Shown in pieces: positions 20,300-35,378 of a stretch of 64,000 bases of DNA. Source of the DNA: Desulfitobacterium dichloroeliminans LMG P-21439 (lineage in GTDB: Bacteria; Bacillota; Desulfitobacteriia; Desulfitobacteriales; Desulfitobacteriaceae); assembly GCF_000243135.2 (NCBI RefSeq), contig NC_019903.1, forward strand, positions 1,650,001-1,714,000. The letters are read 5' to 3'. The position numbers and the translations under genes were made by a program. The notes beneath the pieces are model-generated. The model had not been told where the DNA came from, did no database searches, and saw nothing but the letters and a program-made list of their open reading frames with translations. Within the stretch, counting starts at the first letter, position 1, and the number at the start of each line of letters is the position of its first letter.

Positions 20300-20542
20300 C
20301 CTTAGAGGCTTAGTTGTGTATTGAATATATCGCCGAGGAACGATCTAGTAAGTAACTCGTTCTATAAGAGAGGGAAGGGTTGGTGCAACTTCCTGAAGAT
20401 GAGTGACTGAACCCAATCGTGAGGCTTTGATGATGAATCAAACGGTTCCTGCCGTTATCGGGCTTAAGTGGCGTATTGCAATTAAGGTGGTACCGCGGAA
20501 GGCTTCTTTCGTCCTTGTTTAAGGAATGTAAGGGCCTTTTTT
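20300..20542 (+). promoter_or_regulatory. proline T-box riboswitch
   Basis: Leader of proCBA. The T-box sequence AAGGTGGTACCGCGG is at 20484-20498; GGTTGGTGCAA (about 20378-20388) is the conserved Stem I loop element. In GACTGAACCCAATCG the probable specifier is CCC (20412-20414) followed by A, a proline codon, consistent with the genes it controls. Uncharged tRNA-Pro pairing with UGGU should form the antiterminator. A terminator follows at 20499-20542. A weak -10 (TAAAAT, 20275-20280) lies just upstream. The remaining part of the gap from 20062 shows nothing else. Confidence 0.9.
20499..20542 (+). terminator. T-box terminator
   Basis: AAGGCTTC...GTCCTT and AAGGAATG...GGGCCTT form an imperfect stem followed by TTTTTT at 20537-20542; it is mutually exclusive with the T-box antiterminator. 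Confidence 0.75.
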
Positions 20543-27904: not shown

Positions 27905-30900
27905 ATGAATAAAGGGACTTTTAAAGACAGGAAGTTTTCCATAGGATTGGGATTCGTCATCTTGTTATTAGCCGGCATCTTTTGGGGCGTGAGCCAGCTG
28001 GAGATTACCCCTGAGAAAGTCAGTGCTTCTGAAGTTACCTTCGAGGCTCTGAGTTCTGATAAATTAGGAGTTGATCCAGAGAGCGCTTTTTTGTTGACAA
28101 GCAAGGAACCCTTGAACACAAAGACTATCGAAAAAGCCTTAAGGACAAATCCGGAATTTCCCTACACCTTGGCTGAGCAGGCCGGGGGCTTGACCTATAA
28201 GATTATCCCCAAGGAACCGCTCCAGGCAAATACCATCTACACTCTGTCTTTTGACCCCCAAGGGTTGGGTCGTGAAAATCTAAGCTGGGCTTTCCAAACA
28301 AAAGGACAATTTCGAGTTCTAAGTTCTTTGCCACGCAATGAGAGTACCCATATTCCTATTAATACGGGAATTGAGATTGCTTTTTCTTACGAAAATTTTG
28401 ATATCGATCAGATAAAGCAGTATTTTAGCATATCGCCTGTTATAGAGGGGTCATTTGAACGACATAAAAAGACTTTGGTTTTTGTTCCCGATACATTACA
28501 ACCGTCCACAGTTTATACAATTACGATAAAGAAGGGGTTCACTTTACCCGAAACCACACAAACTTTGTCAGAGGATTATGTCTTTAGTTTTGAAACAGAG
28601 CCGGCGAAGCAAACTAGCCCTTCTTTTCGTTATGATTTAGATGCAGAGTTAACAGAATTTAGCACCAGTGATATCCCTGCCTTTACAGCATACTTCAATA
28701 ATCAAGCATTACGCCAAAACGGAACGGCGACGACTATTCCACCTCTTCATATTGATCTCTACCGCTATTCTGATCACCAGACTTTTCAGACTTCCCTTGC
28801 TCAACGAGATCAAATTCCCCGTTGGTCTTATTATACTTGGAATGGCTATAGGGAGGAGCTGGATCCCCAATTAGTAGTGGCAAAATACGATACTGAGTTT
28901 TTGCAAGTCAATGATTATGTGAATTACATCGTTTTTCCAGAGAAATTAGAAGCCGGTTACTATGCTGCAGAATTTAAAGCGGGAGATACAACAAGACAAG
29001 TATGGTTTCAGGTCACTGATTTAGCAGTATATCTTGCTCAAGGGGAGGGGAGTACCCTTTTCTGGGCTAATGATTTGCAAAGCAGAGCTCCGGCAGCCAA
29101 TGCTGAAATCTATATTGAGAGTAAGCAATTATCTGTAACAGCAGATGATTCGGGAACGGCTTTAATCGATCAAAATCTAACGGGAAATGACCGAGACTAC
29201 GCTCTCGTGAAAAGTGAAAACAAAGAAATATTAGTTCTGCTAGAGTCTTGGCCCCAGTGGTACAGCCAAGATAGTAAGGCGATGGATTACTGGAAGTACC
29301 TCTATCTCGATCGAGAGTTGTACCAGCCTGAAGATACCGTTCATTTTTGGGGAGTATTGGCTCCTCGGGGCAAGACAGATATTCAAGGCAAGAGCGTCGA
29401 TCAAGTCAAGGAAATAACCTTAGAGCTTATGGGGGGAGACTATCCTTTTTATTATGAAACTGAGGTCAGCCCAATCCTTAAGCAGACCATCTCAATCGAA
29501 GACAAAACCTATCATGGGAAATTAAAACTGCCGGTGTTGAAACCTGGATACTATACATTGCAACTGAAGTTGGATGATACGATCCTGCTTTCCCGAGGTC
29601 TTGAAGTAGAGACTTACCGAAAACCTGCTTACCAATTGACTGTATCTCAAGATAAAAAGGCCATATATGCCGGAGAGACCATGAATTTTGCTGCGAGCGC
29701 GACCTTCTTTGAAGGGACACCTGTGCCAGGTTTATCCTTAAATTATTATGTTCATGGTAAAAGCAATTCTGTAATCACCGATGAACAAGGAGAAGCGCAG
29801 ATTACTTATACTGCCACGGTGGATAAGGAAGCTTATCATTCCTATGATTATGTATCCTTAGGGGTGAATGCTTTATTGCCGGAAATCGGTGAAATCTACA
29901 ACTCAGCAGAGTTATATGTATTTAAAAGCAAAGTTTACTTGACTGGAGAAGCTAAGCGCCAAAATGGTGGCTATACCCTGAACGCCAAGCTTTCTACAGT
30001 GGATCTAACGGGTATTAATAATGGAGAATATGTAGCCGAAGAGAATTTCCTAAAAGAACCTGTGGCAAATAGCCCCGTTAGGGCGAGTCTCTATCAAGAG
30101 ATTTGGACACCGGTAGAATCAGGCAAACGCTACGACTTCATTAGCAAAGAAGTAGTCAATACCTACTATTATGAATACTCAACGAAGCACTTAGGTGATC
30201 TAGATTTAGTGACGGATGCCACGGGGCAGATTAATTATACAGGCGGTTCCTTGGAACGCCAGAATTCTTATTATCTCGATTTAGTTGTCGAAGATAAAGA
30301 AGGTCGTCCGTTTAAGAAGCGCCTCCATATTGGTCAGGATAACGGCAATCAGCAGTACCAATATTATTATCTTTTAAATGAAACAAAGAAGGAAGGCTAT
30401 GAGCCTGAGGAGCAGGTTCAAGTGACTTTTATGGCTAACGACGGGGAGTTGACTGCGACAGAAGGGAAAATTCTCTACTTTGGTGGTCAAAAACAGATTG
30501 AGCAGTATCAGGTTAGCAAAGAGCCACATCATAGCTTTCTATTTAAACAGGAGCATATTCCCAATATAAATGTGGCAGGCGTCTATTTTGATGGCTACAA
30601 TTATCGCGAAACTGATATCCTAAGTATTCCGTTTGCTCACCAGACCAAGGCCCTTCAGGTAAGAATAGAGACGGATCAAGCTGAGTATCGGCCGGGTGGT
30701 AAGGTGGAATTGAATCTTCAGGTCACAAATTCGAATGAGCAACCCGTGCCAGGAGCTCAAGTGAACCTTAATCTGGTCGATGAGGCGGTATTTAGTTTGC
30801 GTCAACAAAATGCCAGCTTTTTAACTACTCTTTATGGTGATCGGATTAACCTGAATCTCCTCACTAGGAAGACCCACTATCACCCTGAGATGGTTGGAGG

Positions 30901-32800
30901 GGCTGAGCAGGGTGGTGAAGGCGGTTCGGAAAGAAAGGATTTCCGGGATACGGTACTATTTACTACTTTACAAACTGACAATAATGGTCGAGCAAAGGTT
31001 GAATTTGAATTGCCGGATAATTTAACTTCTTGGCGAGTGACTTATCACGCGTTTGCTCAAGACCTGCAAGCCGGCAGTGGTACGGCTCAGATTCCTGTTC
31101 GGTTACCCTTCTTCGTGGAGATGAATTTGAATAAAACCTATCACGAAGGTGATTCTCCGGTAGTTATCCTCCGTGCCTATGGAGATCAATTAAAGGACAA
31201 TCAAGAAGTAGCCTATGATATGAGACTAGTGAATAAGGAAGGCGAAGAGCAAACTTGGCATGTGACCGCTGATTCCTATACAGCGCTGGATTGGAAGCTG
31301 CCGGATCTGAATAAAGGCAAGTATACCCTTACAGTTGCGGCAGAAAGCGGTGGCTTACAAGACGTGCTCACAAAAGAATTCCAAGTAGTCGAGTCTTACC
31401 AAGCCAGAACGATTACCAGTCAGGAGCTTCTGACGGAAGGTATGGTGGTTAAAGGCTCTCAGCAGGAGCCTACAACCGTGGTTTTCAGTGATTATGAAAA
31501 AAGCCAATATTTACATGGTTTGTACCAACTGGCTTGGAATAACGGCAGTCGCCTAGAGCAAAAGCTGGCGGGGTTAGAAGCTAGAAAACTATTGAACGAG
31601 TATTTTCCTGAAGAAAAGCTATTTGAGGAAGAAGAGGAAGACGAAGATCCTCTACTAAACTATCAACAAGCGGATGGTGGTATCAGCATTCTGCCTTATG
31701 CAGAAAGTGATTTAGCACTATCGGCCATGGTTGCTTCCAGTACATCAGGAATAGTTGACGAAAGAGCTTTAAAAGGATACTTCTATCGGATGATGGAGGG
31801 AGAACAAGAAGTCGATCAAAGCTTGGTTTTATTAGGATTAGCCGCCCTTAAAGAACCGGTGCTGCTCCAAATTGAAGATTATCTTCAGCAAGGGAATCTG
31901 GCACCGGAGGTTAAAATTCACCTTGCACTTGCTTTGCTGGAATTAGGGGATGGGGCTTTCGCCGAAAAAGTAGTTCAGGAATTACTAGGCTTATTTAGTC
32001 AAGATTTGGGTAGCTCAATAAGGATTAATGTGGGACGTGATCAGGATGAGATGATCCAGGCTACAACCCAGATGACTTTGCTGGCCGCTCGTTTGAATCA
32101 ACCGGAAAAGAATAAACTGTATCAATATCTCTTGGAAAACCAAGGGAAGGACGTTCTTAATCTGGTCGAACAAATCCAAATTCTCAAGTACAATCTCAAA
32201 TACATGGAGGCTTCACCAGTGAGCTTCAGTTACGAGCTGGGCGGTGAAAGGATTACCAAAAGTCTGCAAGGCAGGGAAATCGCCAAATTGACTCTACTGC
32301 CGAAAAACTTGCAACAAATAAAGTTTGGTCAAGTGAATGGTCAAGTTGGAATCGTGAGCACTTATAACCAACCGATTAAAGCCGGAGAAACAGGCGATGG
32401 TACAGATCTAAGCATCGGTCGCAGCTATCTCGTCAATGGTAGTGAACGCACTTCGCTAAACAGCTCTGATTTGGTTCAGATTGTTATTGATGTCAACATT
32501 GGTGATAAAGCACCTGATGGGCACTATGAGGTTATCGACATTCTGCCTGCCGGACTGGCCCCTATTTCCCGCCCCAATAATTATCAGGATAATAATAGGC
32601 CATGGAATTACCCGGTTGAAGTGAATGGTCAACGACTTGTCTTCCAATTAGGCAAAGGCCAAGAGCAAATTAAGTATCTAGCCCGTGTGACCTCTCCCGG
32701 TGAGTTTATCTGTGAAGCTCCGGTTCTAAGTAATATTACGAACAGCGAGATTTTTACCAGCGGAGCCGCAGCAAAGCTTACTATTAACACGGATCAATAA
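27905..32800 (+). CDS. alpha-2-macroglobulin-like surface protein without thioester motif
   Basis: 1,631 aa. A signal anchor at about residues 12-29 suggests display outside the membrane. Ig-like repeats of the Big_5 type (about 40-245: THIPINTGIEIAFSY and similar) are followed by MG domains (YLDRELYQPEDTVHFWGVL is the MG2-like bait-side motif) and the central A2M domain (NLTSWRVTYHAFAQDLQAGSG). The thioester CxEQ of protease-trapping members is absent; the aligned place reads NNGSRLEQKLAGLEA. So covalent trapping is not expected. Bacterial A2M homologues usually pair with pbpC; here the neighbour is a Memo-like lipoprotein, 31 bp downstream. Start ATG 27905, RBS AGGATGAGG. Confidence 0.85.
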   Translation: MNKGTFKDRKFSIGLGFVILLLAGIFWGVSQLEITPEKVSASEVTFEALSSDKLGVDPESAFLLTSKEPLNTKTIEKALRTNPEFPYTLAEQAGGLTYKIIPKEPLQANTIYTLSFDPQGLGRENLSWAFQTKGQFRVLSSLPRNESTHIPINTGIEIAFSYENFDIDQIKQYFSISPVIEGSFERHKKTLVFVPDTLQPSTVYTITIKKGFTLPETTQTLSEDYVFSFETEPAKQTSPSFRYDLDAELTEFSTSDIPAFTAYFNNQALRQNGTATTIPPLHIDLYRYSDHQTFQTSLAQRDQIPRWSYYTWNGYREELDPQLVVAKYDTEFLQVNDYVNYIVFPEKLEAGYYAAEFKAGDTTRQVWFQVTDLAVYLAQGEGSTLFWANDLQSRAPAANAEIYIESKQLSVTADDSGTALIDQNLTGNDRDYALVKSENKEILVLLESWPQWYSQDSKAMDYWKYLYLDRELYQPEDTVHFWGVLAPRGKTDIQGKSVDQVKEITLELMGGDYPFYYETEVSPILKQTISIEDKTYHGKLKLPVLKPGYYTLQLKLDDTILLSRGLEVETYRKPAYQLTVSQDKKAIYAGETMNFAASATFFEGTPVPGLSLNYYVHGKSNSVITDEQGEAQITYTATVDKEAYHSYDYVSLGVNALLPEIGEIYNSAELYVFKSKVYLTGEAKRQNGGYTLNAKLSTVDLTGINNGEYVAEENFLKEPVANSPVRASLYQEIWTPVESGKRYDFISKEVVNTYYYEYSTKHLGDLDLVTDATGQINYTGGSLERQNSYYLDLVVEDKEGRPFKKRLHIGQDNGNQQYQYYYLLNETKKEGYEPEEQVQVTFMANDGELTATEGKILYFGGQKQIEQYQVSKEPHHSFLFKQEHIPNINVAGVYFDGYNYRETDILSIPFAHQTKALQVRIETDQAEYRPGGKVELNLQVTNSNEQPVPGAQVNLNLVDEAVFSLRQQNASFLTTLYGDRINLNLLTRKTHYHPEMVGGAEQGGEGGSERKDFRDTVLFTTLQTDNNGRAKVEFELPDNLTSWRVTYHAFAQDLQAGSGTAQIPVRLPFFVEMNLNKTYHEGDSPVVILRAYGDQLKDNQEVAYDMRLVNKEGEEQTWHVTADSYTALDWKLPDLNKGKYTLTVAAESGGLQDVLTKEFQVVESYQARTITSQELLTEGMVVKGSQQEPTTVVFSDYEKSQYLHGLYQLAWNNGSRLEQKLAGLEARKLLNEYFPEEKLFEEEEEDEDPLLNYQQADGGISILPYAESDLALSAMVASSTSGIVDERALKGYFYRMMEGEQEVDQSLVLLGLAALKEPVLLQIEDYLQQGNLAPEVKIHLALALLELGDGAFAEKVVQELLGLFSQDLGSSIRINVGRDQDEMIQATTQMTLLAARLNQPEKNKLYQYLLENQGKDVLNLVEQIQILKYNLKYMEASPVSFSYELGGERITKSLQGREIAKLTLLPKNLQQIKFGQVNGQVGIVSTYNQPIKAGETGDGTDLSIGRSYLVNGSERTSLNSSDLVQIVIDVNIGDKAPDGHYEVIDILPAGLAPISRPNNYQDNNRPWNYPVEVNGQRLVFQLGKGQEQIKYLARVTSPGEFICEAPVLSNITNSEIFTSGAAAKLTINTDQ

Positions 32801-32831
32801 TCCATGCCTTACAAACGAGGATTGTAATATC

Positions 32832-33731
32832 ATGAAATATTTTATTATTTTAATAACTAAGCCTTCATTGCTTAGGAACAGCTTGATTTTATGTTGTTTT
32901 CTCCTGCTTTTGCTAACAGGATGTAGCCCAAGAGCCCAAAATGCCCCGACAGTCGCTATTCACCCAAGCTTTGTGACGCAACAGGAATTAACCACGATTT
33001 TGGCAAGTGGTTCAGGAAAACCTAAAATTACCGAAAGAAGGGCAGTAAGTGCTGTCCTTCCTCATCATTTGCTGGCGGGTCGTCTGTTAGTGGATGCTAT
33101 CGAAGCTTTGGCCCTACAGGAACCTAATTTGGTGATTTTAGTAGGACCTAACCATTTTAATCATGGAGGAAGAATAATTAGCGGGTTTTCCGGTTGGCAG
33201 ACTCCGGAAGGAGTTATGGAGGTTGATGCTGAGGTCGTCGATCATCTTTTGGCGAAAGGTCTGGTTGTAACGGACGAAGAAGTCCTCGCCAAAGAGCACT
33301 CTATCGGAGCTCTCGCGCCAATGCTGAAGCATTTTCTGCCGGAAGCGGATATTGTCCCCCTTATCTTGCATCATGATATTAGTCTTAAGGAAGTCGATGC
33401 GCTATTAGAGGGACTGGAAGTTTTTGTGGATGATAAGGCGATATTAATCGCATCAGTGGATTTTTCGCATTATCTAACCAGAAGTGAGGCCCAGTTCAAA
33501 GATCAAGAGACACTAGAATATATGAAAGATTTCGATTATCCGGCCTTATTTGGTTTGGGTAATGATTACTTAGATTCGCCCGCCTCCTTGGTAGCAGCTA
33601 TTCGCTTGGCAGAACAAAAAGGTATCAGGGCGTTCAAGGTGCTCGACAATACCAATTCCGGCATCATCCTGCGCAATGATTTCATCGAAACCACCAGTTA
33701 TTTTACATTGGTGTTTACGGAAAATCTGTAG
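32832..33731 (+). CDS. Memo-family (AmmeMemoRadiSam protein B-like) lipoprotein
   Basis: 299 aa. A long hydrophobic leader ends in LLTGC (lipobox, Cys31), predicting a lipid-anchored extracytoplasmic protein. The Memo domain is recognised from LPHHLLAGRL, LVGPNHFNHGG, EHSIGALAPML and SVDFSHYLT, which carry the conserved His residues of the putative metal site. Memo proteins in AmmeMemoRadiSam loci are usually cytoplasmic and next to a radical SAM gene; here there is neither. Function unknown. Probably cotranscribed with the A2M gene. Confidence 0.8.
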   Translation: MKYFIILITKPSLLRNSLILCCFLLLLLTGCSPRAQNAPTVAIHPSFVTQQELTTILASGSGKPKITERRAVSAVLPHHLLAGRLLVDAIEALALQEPNLVILVGPNHFNHGGRIISGFSGWQTPEGVMEVDAEVVDHLLAKGLVVTDEEVLAKEHSIGALAPMLKHFLPEADIVPLILHHDISLKEVDALLEGLEVFVDDKAILIASVDFSHYLTRSEAQFKDQETLEYMKDFDYPALFGLGNDYLDSPASLVAAIRLAEQKGIRAFKVLDNTNSGIILRNDFIETTSYFTLVFTENL

Positions 33732-33779: not shown

Positions 33780-33808
33780 TTGATATGTACTTTTCCTAAT
33801 GGTATAAT
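33780..33808 (+). promoter_or_regulatory. strong promoter for the MFS leader
   Basis: TTGATA (33780-33785), 17-bp spacer, TATAAT (33803-33808). Transcription would start near 33815, just before an AAAGGAGG at 33825-33832. Confidence 0.85.
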
Positions 33809-33843
33809 TTAAATAATTTTCATTAAAGGAGGACATCTAAACC

Positions 33844-33870
33844 ATGTTGCATTCCGTTCGTATTCGGTAA
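33844..33870 (+). CDS. 8-aa leader peptide MLHSVRIR (macrolide-type arrest peptide candidate)
   Basis: ATG 33844 lies eleven bases after AAAGGAGG and is followed by eight codons and TAA. The peptide MLHSVRIR ends in Arg-Ile-Arg. Leader peptides of macrolide-inducible genes such as ermD and mef/msr are of the form MTxSMRLR, with a +X+ (Arg-X-Arg) motif that stalls macrolide-bound ribosomes. This one matches in length, in the Ser-x-Arg-x-Arg pattern and in lying upstream of terminators and a Mef-like gene. Stalling itself is inferred. Confidence 0.75.
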   Translation: MLHSVRIR

Positions 33871-33891
33871 GTAACCAGCAAAAGGCATTAT

Positions 33892-33915
33892 CCCATTCCG
33901 AAGTGGGGCTTTTTT
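33892..33915 (+). terminator. short attenuator terminator
   Basis: CCCATT (33892-33897), loop CCGA, AGTGGG (33902-33907), then GCTTTTTT. It lies 22 bp after the leader peptide stop. Confidence 0.6.
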
Positions 33916-34011
33916 GTTGTGCTTATCGGCGGATGAAGACATGGTAAGGAAAGGGAAGCTCAAGGGAGTTTTCCCAATTTCTGTTGGTGTCTTTATATCA
34001 CGTTGAAGCCT

Positions 34012-34050
34012 ACAGGCTAAAGTCAAATTTTGGACTTTAGCCTGTTTTTT
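34012..34050 (+). terminator. strong attenuator terminator before the MFS gene
   Basis: ACAGGCTAAAGTC (34012-34024) pairs perfectly with GACTTTAGCCTGT (34033-34045), followed by TTTTTT. It stands 111 bp before the transporter start, in the same transcript as the leader peptide. Confidence 0.85.
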
Positions 34051-34160
34051 GTTGGTATTGGTAACTAAAATCGATAAGTCAATTGAGCTGAATAAAATAA
34101 AACTGAACTAATTTCAAGAAGAAATACAATACAAGCTATGTTATTCAAAGGAGAAATACT

Positions 34161-35378
34161 ATGACTATAAAAACTGAACATTGGAAGCGTAGCTTCTATA
34201 CCCTATGGGCGGGTCAGGCCGTTTCCCTCATCACCAGCGCAGTCTTGCAAATGGCAATCATTTGGTATCTTACCGAAAAGACCGGTTCAGCTATGGTTCT
34301 GTCCATAGCGACTTTGGTAGGTTTTTTACCTCAGGCGATTTTAGGACCTGTTATTGGAGTATTGGTGGACCGTTATCATCGTAAATACGTCATGATCGGT
34401 GCTGATCTTTTGATTGCGGCTGTAGGGTTGATTCTAGCCTTGGCCTCCTTGACCATGGAACTGCCTGTTTGGCTAATTATGATTGTTTTATTCCTGCGCA
34501 GTGTGGGTACAGCATTCCATTCTCCGGCTTTGAATGCAGCCACACCGCTATTGGTGCCAGAGGATCAACTGACAAAATGTGCAGGATATACTCAGTCCAT
34601 TCAGTCTGCTAGCTATATTCTTGGCCCTGCTGTGGCTGCTCTACTCTATGTTATCTGGGATCTTAATGCCATCATCCTTTTGGATGTAGGAGGAGCAATT
34701 TTTGCCAGTATTCTTACGGCTTTTGTGTATATTCCCAAGTTGGAGGCTAGCCAAACCACAGTTCAGGGGGATTTTATCCTAGAGATGAAAGAGGGCTATT
34801 TAGCGCTCAGATCGAATAAGGGCTTGTTTGGCCTTCTCTGGGTGGGGGCACTATATATGCTCTTCTTTATGCCCATCAATGCCTTATTCCCACTAATGAG
34901 TATAAAATACTTTGGTGGAACCACCTTCCAAGCATCCATCGTTGAGATCAGCTTCGCCGTAGGAATGCTGGTGGGAGGACTTGTCCTAGGAGTCTGGGGA
35001 GGCTTCAAAAACCGTGTGATGAGTCTTACGGCTTCCATCGTGCTCATGGGTGCTAGTCTCGCCGTATCAGGGTTATTGCCGGTGAAGGGGTATGGATTTT
35101 TTGTTCTATGCTCAACCCTTATGGGCTTTTCTGCGCCCTTTTATAGCGGAGTGCAGACGGCTTTATTCCAAGAAAAGATTACCCCAGAATATCTAGGTCG
35201 TGTCTTTGCCTTATTAGGTAGCGTTGTTTCTGTGGCGATGCCTCTTGGTTTGGTGTTATCCGCTTTGTTTGCGGATACAATAGGAGTGAATCGTTGGTTT
35301 CTTATTTCGGGAATACTGATCATGGGAATCGCTGTGCTTCCTGGCATAATCCCTACCCTGCGAAACTTAGATCGATGA
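34161..35378 (+). CDS. MFS efflux transporter, Mef-like
   Basis: 405 aa with 12 predicted membrane segments. The N-terminal half (SFYTLWAGQAVSLITSAVLQ, MAIIWYLTEKTGSAMVLS) and the loop VLVDRYHRKYVMIGAD resemble macrolide/drug exporters of the Mef group (MFS_3). Proton-driven drug efflux is the usual role. RBS AAAGGAG before ATG 34161. The attenuator with an Arg-Ile-Arg leader peptide upstream strongly suggests antibiotic-induced expression. The substrate is inferred, not shown. Confidence 0.85.
   Translation: MTIKTEHWKRSFYTLWAGQAVSLITSAVLQMAIIWYLTEKTGSAMVLSIATLVGFLPQAILGPVIGVLVDRYHRKYVMIGADLLIAAVGLILALASLTMELPVWLIMIVLFLRSVGTAFHSPALNAATPLLVPEDQLTKCAGYTQSIQSASYILGPAVAALLYVIWDLNAIILLDVGGAIFASILTAFVYIPKLEASQTTVQGDFILEMKEGYLALRSNKGLFGLLWVGALYMLFFMPINALFPLMSIKYFGGTTFQASIVEISFAVGMLVGGLVLGVWGGFKNRVMSLTASIVLMGASLAVSGLLPVKGYGFFVLCSTLMGFSAPFYSGVQTALFQEKITPEYLGRVFALLGSVVSVAMPLGLVLSALFADTIGVNRWFLISGILIMGIAVLPGIIPTLRNLDR

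Follow-up and report, generated by a model that had tools for sequence, protein, structure and literature searches.

What is known of inducible macrolide efflux comes mostly from transposons and phages of streptococci. In the mef(E) attenuator, a leader encoding the peptide MTASMRLR is accompanied by the hairpins R1/R2 and R3/R4, a terminator (R5/R6) and an antiterminator (dIR1/dIR2), and the mechanism has been demonstrated by mutation and RNA-seq (Chancey 2015; PMC4335068). The leader of ermD and ermK, MTHSMRLR (followed by FPTLNQ), governs a 23S rRNA methylase, and no homology can be discerned between the leader RNAs of mef and erm(K) (PMC4335068). For the ErmD leader peptide (ErmDL), Ser4 is the residue most critical for erythromycin arrest, and every exchange of it other than to Ala or Gly weakens this arrest; for telithromycin arrest, positions 6 and 8 must be Arg (or Lys), and Val is not among the position-5 residues named as harmful to it (PMC8298421). 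In this study, we describe a locus in the window, i.e., the whole stretch of 64,000 nucleotides of Desulfitobacterium dichloroeliminans that was analysed, which is very probably a transcription attenuator like that of mef(A)/mef(E), operated by the ribosome and placed in control of a native Mef-like exporter of macrolides. Computational support comes from the parts themselves, from an RNA homologous to the mef leader, from both pairings and the peptide being conserved, and from a syntenic locus in a second species; ribosome arrest on the leader, 14- and 15-membered macrolides as inducers, and their export by the pump are what we infer.

The window locus shares with mef(E)/mel (Mega) and mef(A) (PMC4335068) the order of the parts, R1/R2, the middle stem-loop, the U-tailed terminator and dIR1/dIR2, as well as an 8-codon leader ending in R-x-R, a Mef pump and covariance-model homology of the RNA. 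Unlike these systems, its leader reads MLHSVRIR, and its dIR1 and dIR2 are shorter and partly changed together. With the ermD/ermK leader it has in common the length to the arrest site, His3, Ser4, Arg6 and Arg8, and erm(K), like the switch proposed here, uses transcription attenuation, whereas the gene controlled in the window is a pump and not a methylase. The closest leaders among the matches listed, MLHSMRIR of gut bacteria, are identical to that of the window at seven of eight residues; their elements share the R1/R2 core and are likewise matched by RF02862, but precede a Cfr/RlmN-like methylase gene and lie near mobile-element relaxase or replication genes.

All parts of the locus lie on the forward strand. 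The sigma-70-type promoter (33780-33808; TTGATA-17-TATAAT with an extended TG) has 11 of 12 consensus matches, in agreement with the strong promoter claimed in an earlier note on this DNA, and the promoter at the same place in the syntenic relative reads TTGAGC-17-TATAAT. The Shine-Dalgarno sequence AAAGGAGG (33825-33832), retained in intact relatives, and the 8-codon ORF with its Arg-Ile-Arg end (33844-33870; ATG TTG CAT TCC GTT CGT ATT CGG TAA), for which relatives have homologous leaders, are both present as that note had described them. By analogy with ErmDL (PMC8298421), the ribosome is predicted to stall once Ile7 (33862-33864) occupies the P site and Arg8 (33865-33867) the A site. The predicted R1/R2 hairpin (33865-33928; family helix 5, with 90.6% of cells paired in an alignment of 26 elements) would hide the antiterminator strand as long as no ribosome is stalled; this strand, dIR1 (CCAGCAAAAGGC, 33875-33886), aligns to GGCAAUAAAAAA of the relatives and, when a stalled ribosome is modelled, pairs with the U-tract. 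A middle stem-loop predicted at 33953-33974 (family helix 7), with changes on both sides in 7 of 7 pairs, is likely the counterpart of mef(E) R3/R4. The perfect 13-bp terminator that had been claimed is found at 34012-34050 (stem 34012-34045, U-tract 34045-34050), and is a strong Rho-independent terminator of -19.2 kcal/mol with a U6 tail, with 87.5% of cells paired in family helix 11, and the apparent counterpart of R5/R6. Its 3' arm and U-tract are overlapped by dIR2 (34040-34055), the putative alternative partner of dIR1, and the Shine-Dalgarno sequence of the MFS gene follows at 34147-34153. A pattern combining ribosome-binding site, R-x-R, TAAG and U-tract has a single match in the window and no match in 100 dinucleotide shuffles, and the leader folds with -86 kcal/mol (z = -6.4), with none of 200 shuffles being equally good. 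A 'short terminator' at 33891-33908, taken previously for a second, early terminator, was rejected: it is weak (-6.9 kcal/mol, equalled by about 11% of shuffles), its median rank over relatives is 0.19, in most of them it is no better than shuffles, and the segment amounts mostly to the apical part of the larger R1/R2 hairpin.

The gene behind the leader (34161-35378) encodes an intact MFS protein of 405 amino acids. It scores 622.3 bits against the NCBIfam Mef(A) model NF000245, whose curated cut-off (675) it does not reach, and shares about 67% identity with the mobile Mef(A) of plasmids and phages; on these comparisons, it is classified here as Mef-like and outside Mef(A) proper, and the Mef-like exporter expected from the first reading stands, its export function being a prediction. 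Downstream of the pump lie an alpha/beta hydrolase gene and then an ABC exporter. Unlike Mega and mef(A), the locus is without msr(D), which in mef-msr(D) mobile elements comes next in a mobile setting, and is chromosomal and syntenic in the genus, not carried on a transposon or phage. In a tree of Mef proteins, the sequences of the window and its congener are placed next to the group containing the MTASMRLR clade. This tree is uncertainly rooted and sampled with a bias towards genes that have a leader, so any direction of transfer read from it would be tentative. A search at the Mef-like and ABC-F paralogues in the genome of the window found no leader of the MLHSVRIR/mef type.

The RNA itself can be placed through Rfam. 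RF02862 ("Enterococcus sRNA 1300", sRNA_1300) matches the window at 33851-34052 with 53.7 bits against a gathering score of 48.8, which makes the locus a member, although the threshold is exceeded by just 5 bits. On mobile mef(A) leaders with MTASMRLR, the same model scores 277 bits (L006) and 275 bits (L034, Streptococcus infantis), and in L006 and L007, where a Mef(A)-type protein is encoded downstream, its match starts within the uORF for MTASMRLR. Judged by these matches, RF02862 is the leader of mobile mef(A), namely the mef attenuator, and because it covers this leader, the window RNA is a full-length homologue of the mef(A)/mef(E) attenuator and not just similar to it. The reading for which the earlier note had argued from likeness to macrolide leader peptides is thereby supported at the level of the RNA. 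Among the papers searched, none names RF02862 or the peptide MLHSMRIR, and the three in which Desulfitobacterium occurs with macrolide and mef do not, by title and abstract, deal with this locus.

Conservation of the peptide was assessed in 34 elements, in which the codon at position 4 is TCC, TCT, TCA, TCG or AGC, all encoding Ser, with a single Phe as the exception; Ser4 is thus preserved through synonymous changes. Positions 5 and 7 vary (V/I/M and L/I, respectively), the window having Val5 and Ile7 versus Met5 and Leu7 in the proven leaders. A column-shuffling result on R-x-R carries no weight, because the scan pattern itself required R-x-R; this motif in scan hits was therefore set aside, and we relied instead on Ser4, which the pattern left unconstrained, and on elements found by other routes. 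Among the latter (RF02862 hits L002-L016 and congener G003), R-x-R occurs in 13 of 16, the leaders of L013 and L014 being broken and L004 being without a recognisable leader. The ORF and its Arg-x-Arg end are accordingly conserved both at the congeneric syntenic locus and in RF02862 hits found without requiring a uORF.

The alternative structures were tested on the alignment of 26 elements, with slid pairings and 500 shuffles as controls. In an OFF structure derived from L041, 75.8% of cells are paired, compared with 39.7-46.7% after sliding, and its covariation score beats all 500 shuffles; for the ON helix dIR1:dIR2, the values are 90.0% versus 51.8-64.9% in the 26 sequences. The OFF fold derived from the window is less supported across the family (62.5% of cells), its outer helices being largely window-specific. 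Antiterminator and terminator pairs are thus retained across relatives, in line with the attenuator that had been proposed. In a model of the stalled state, in which the RNA was blocked up to 7 nt beyond the stop codon to mimic a ribosome arrested at codon 7, pairing of the U-tract with dIR1 rises from 0.00 to 0.45 in the window RNA, and reaches about 0.9 or more in many relatives. The terminator 3' arm of the blocked window RNA is still 0.92 paired, the terminator being shortened and about half of the U-tract engaged, so the modelled dIR1:dIR2 switch of the window is incomplete at equilibrium. In several relatives, including congener G003, the ON state is already the favoured one at equilibrium with no ribosome stalled, and hence the order of co-transcriptional folding must matter.

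From these elements, a course of events can be proposed. With no drug, ribosomes would complete MLHSVRIR and depart, the R1/R2 hairpin (33865-33928) would capture dIR1 (33875-33886), and the terminator at 34012-34050 would form, leaving only a leader RNA of about 240 nt. A macrolide-bound ribosome would arrest on the leader with Ile7 and Arg8 in the P and A sites, its footprint extending to about 33877 and blocking R1/R2; the freed dIR1 could then pair with the terminator 3' arm and U-tract (dIR2, 34040-34055), so that RNA polymerase would read through and the pump would be produced.

Relatives of the element were sought by a pattern scan over the genomes of 84,980 species, which gave at least 118 stretches, plus 9 viral stretches. 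The leaders among the 127 matches listed are MTASMRLR (at least 73), MLHSMRIR (at least 39), MTASIRLR (at least 8) and seven others. Among these matches, MTASxRLR leaders precede Mef(A) types, some of them truncated, wherever the downstream sequence sufficed, and MLHSMRIR is followed by the gene for a radical-SAM methylase from the RlmN/Cfr superfamily. RF02862 hits obtained independently of a uORF stand before Mef-like genes (L002, L016), Msr-like ABC-F genes (L003, L005, L008, L009, L014) and more distant MFS genes (L010, L011), and the core model R1 matched 14 of 398 sampled genomes of the phylum and 5 of 46 in the family. At the MLHSMRIR loci (L037, L058, L105 and at least 36 others), the methylase has 327 amino acids and is near-identical in Lachnospiraceae, Megasphaera and Slackia; a relaxase near L058 and a rolling-circle replication gene near L105 make this unit look mobile. 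Distant Mef-like genes of the same bacterial family (about 34-36% identical; L026, L027, L028) have upstream uORFs of other macrolide types (VTSSIRLRLQTLNR, MSAFWRLR and MTAAIRLR), and a variant leader, MSGRRAR, precedes an Msr-like ABC-F gene at L197 (G331:C2:15580-15684).

Within the genus, two congeners are informative. G003 has a syntenic locus with the leader MLYSVRIR and a Mef protein 89% identical, sharing most neighbours with the window over about 20 kb and retaining the promoter, leader codons 4-8, the hairpins and the pump. At the same place, G004 has a terminator (78% identical over 58 nt) directly before a stretch matching the mef 3' end, and the flanking genes are mostly syntenic in the two congeners. 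The scar in G004 (L166:12636-12740; G004:C1, about 2046635-2046740) thus joins the attenuator terminator to a mef 3' stump, from which it follows that the module was once present there and then lost, and that it is old in the genus. Attenuator and pump appear to have long belonged to the chromosomes of the genus; a recent import with a mobile element is ruled out by the synteny and the G004 remnant.

The same remnant, together with the broken leaders L013 and L014, raises the question of whether the window itself holds a decayed element, a relic leader and terminator with a silent or constitutive pump. We consider this quite improbable, as every part is intact in the window, and the syntenic congener has kept its promoter, codons 4-8 of the leader, its hairpins and its pump. 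Still less credible is a trans-acting small RNA with the pump gene downstream by chance. The typing of RF02862 as sRNA and a 230-nt RNA observed in E. faecium (PMC5593968) speak for it, but a short RNA is equally expected from a terminated attenuator, and the E. faecium RNA would fit the appearance of a terminated leader. Moreover, the RF02862 model begins within the MTASMRLR ORF, and intact family members with sufficient downstream sequence nearly always have a uORF and stand before a resistance-type gene on the same strand. On this genomic context, the trans-acting reading under the Rfam name was rejected, and the evidence points to a cis-acting attenuator. Despite their filing under Enterococcus sRNA, RF02862 members (window 33851-34052; L006, L034, L037, L041) resemble cis-acting macrolide-resistance leaders.

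A subtler question concerns the drug. The same attenuator could be tuned to other tunnel- or PTC-binding drugs (ketolide-like, lincosamide, streptogramin or phenicol) and not chiefly to erythromycin-type macrolides, since this leader and the one proven for ErmD have different residues at positions 2, 5 and 7, and the closest listed leader, MLHSMRIR, precedes a Cfr/RlmN-like methylase. Known Cfr resistance members protect against other drug classes. Against such tuning, Ser4 and R-x-R, which are key for erythromycin and telithromycin arrest, are retained, and a macrolide exporter is the nearest match of the pump; we regard such tuning as unlikely, and prefer a mef(A)/mef(E)-type attenuator that responds to macrolides.

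While the attenuation mechanism is already known, what appears to be new here is a chromosomal member of this kind of antibiotic-responsive leader. Its vertically kept, syntenic copy in an anaerobe genus points to an environmental reservoir of switch and pump as a unit, and predicts an intrinsic, drug-inducible macrolide tolerance in these anaerobes. We also advance, tentatively and at somewhat less than an even chance, that the attenuator-pump module is ancestral in environmental anaerobic Firmicutes and was the stock for mobile mef(A), the switch being reused as a general plug-in sensor before ABC-F factors, Cfr/RlmN-like methylases and perhaps an acetyltransferase, with sRNA_1300 as one case. 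The results further suggest a new description of the RF02862 'sRNA' family, as a leader acting in cis and responding to antibiotics; this would aid the annotation of resistance genes in many genomes.

Several other features were observed in these genomes. Directly upstream of the locus (27905-33731), the window contains Alpha-2-macroglobulin-like and Memo-like genes that are absent at this site in two congeners, which carry thi-type genes in their place; those of G003 come with a TPP riboswitch. In G004, the element has a diverged copy, with the uORF MSSIR, upstream of a GNAT acetyltransferase gene (L185; G004:C1:2797517-2797619, minus strand). An ABC-F gene in the same genome as the window (L180; G000:C1:900256-901563), 39% identical to Msr-like proteins, has a terminator-like hairpin and a U-tract just before its start, which suggests attenuation of another type. 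Finally, a T-box leader is present in the window at 20327-20519 (RF00230, 105 bits).
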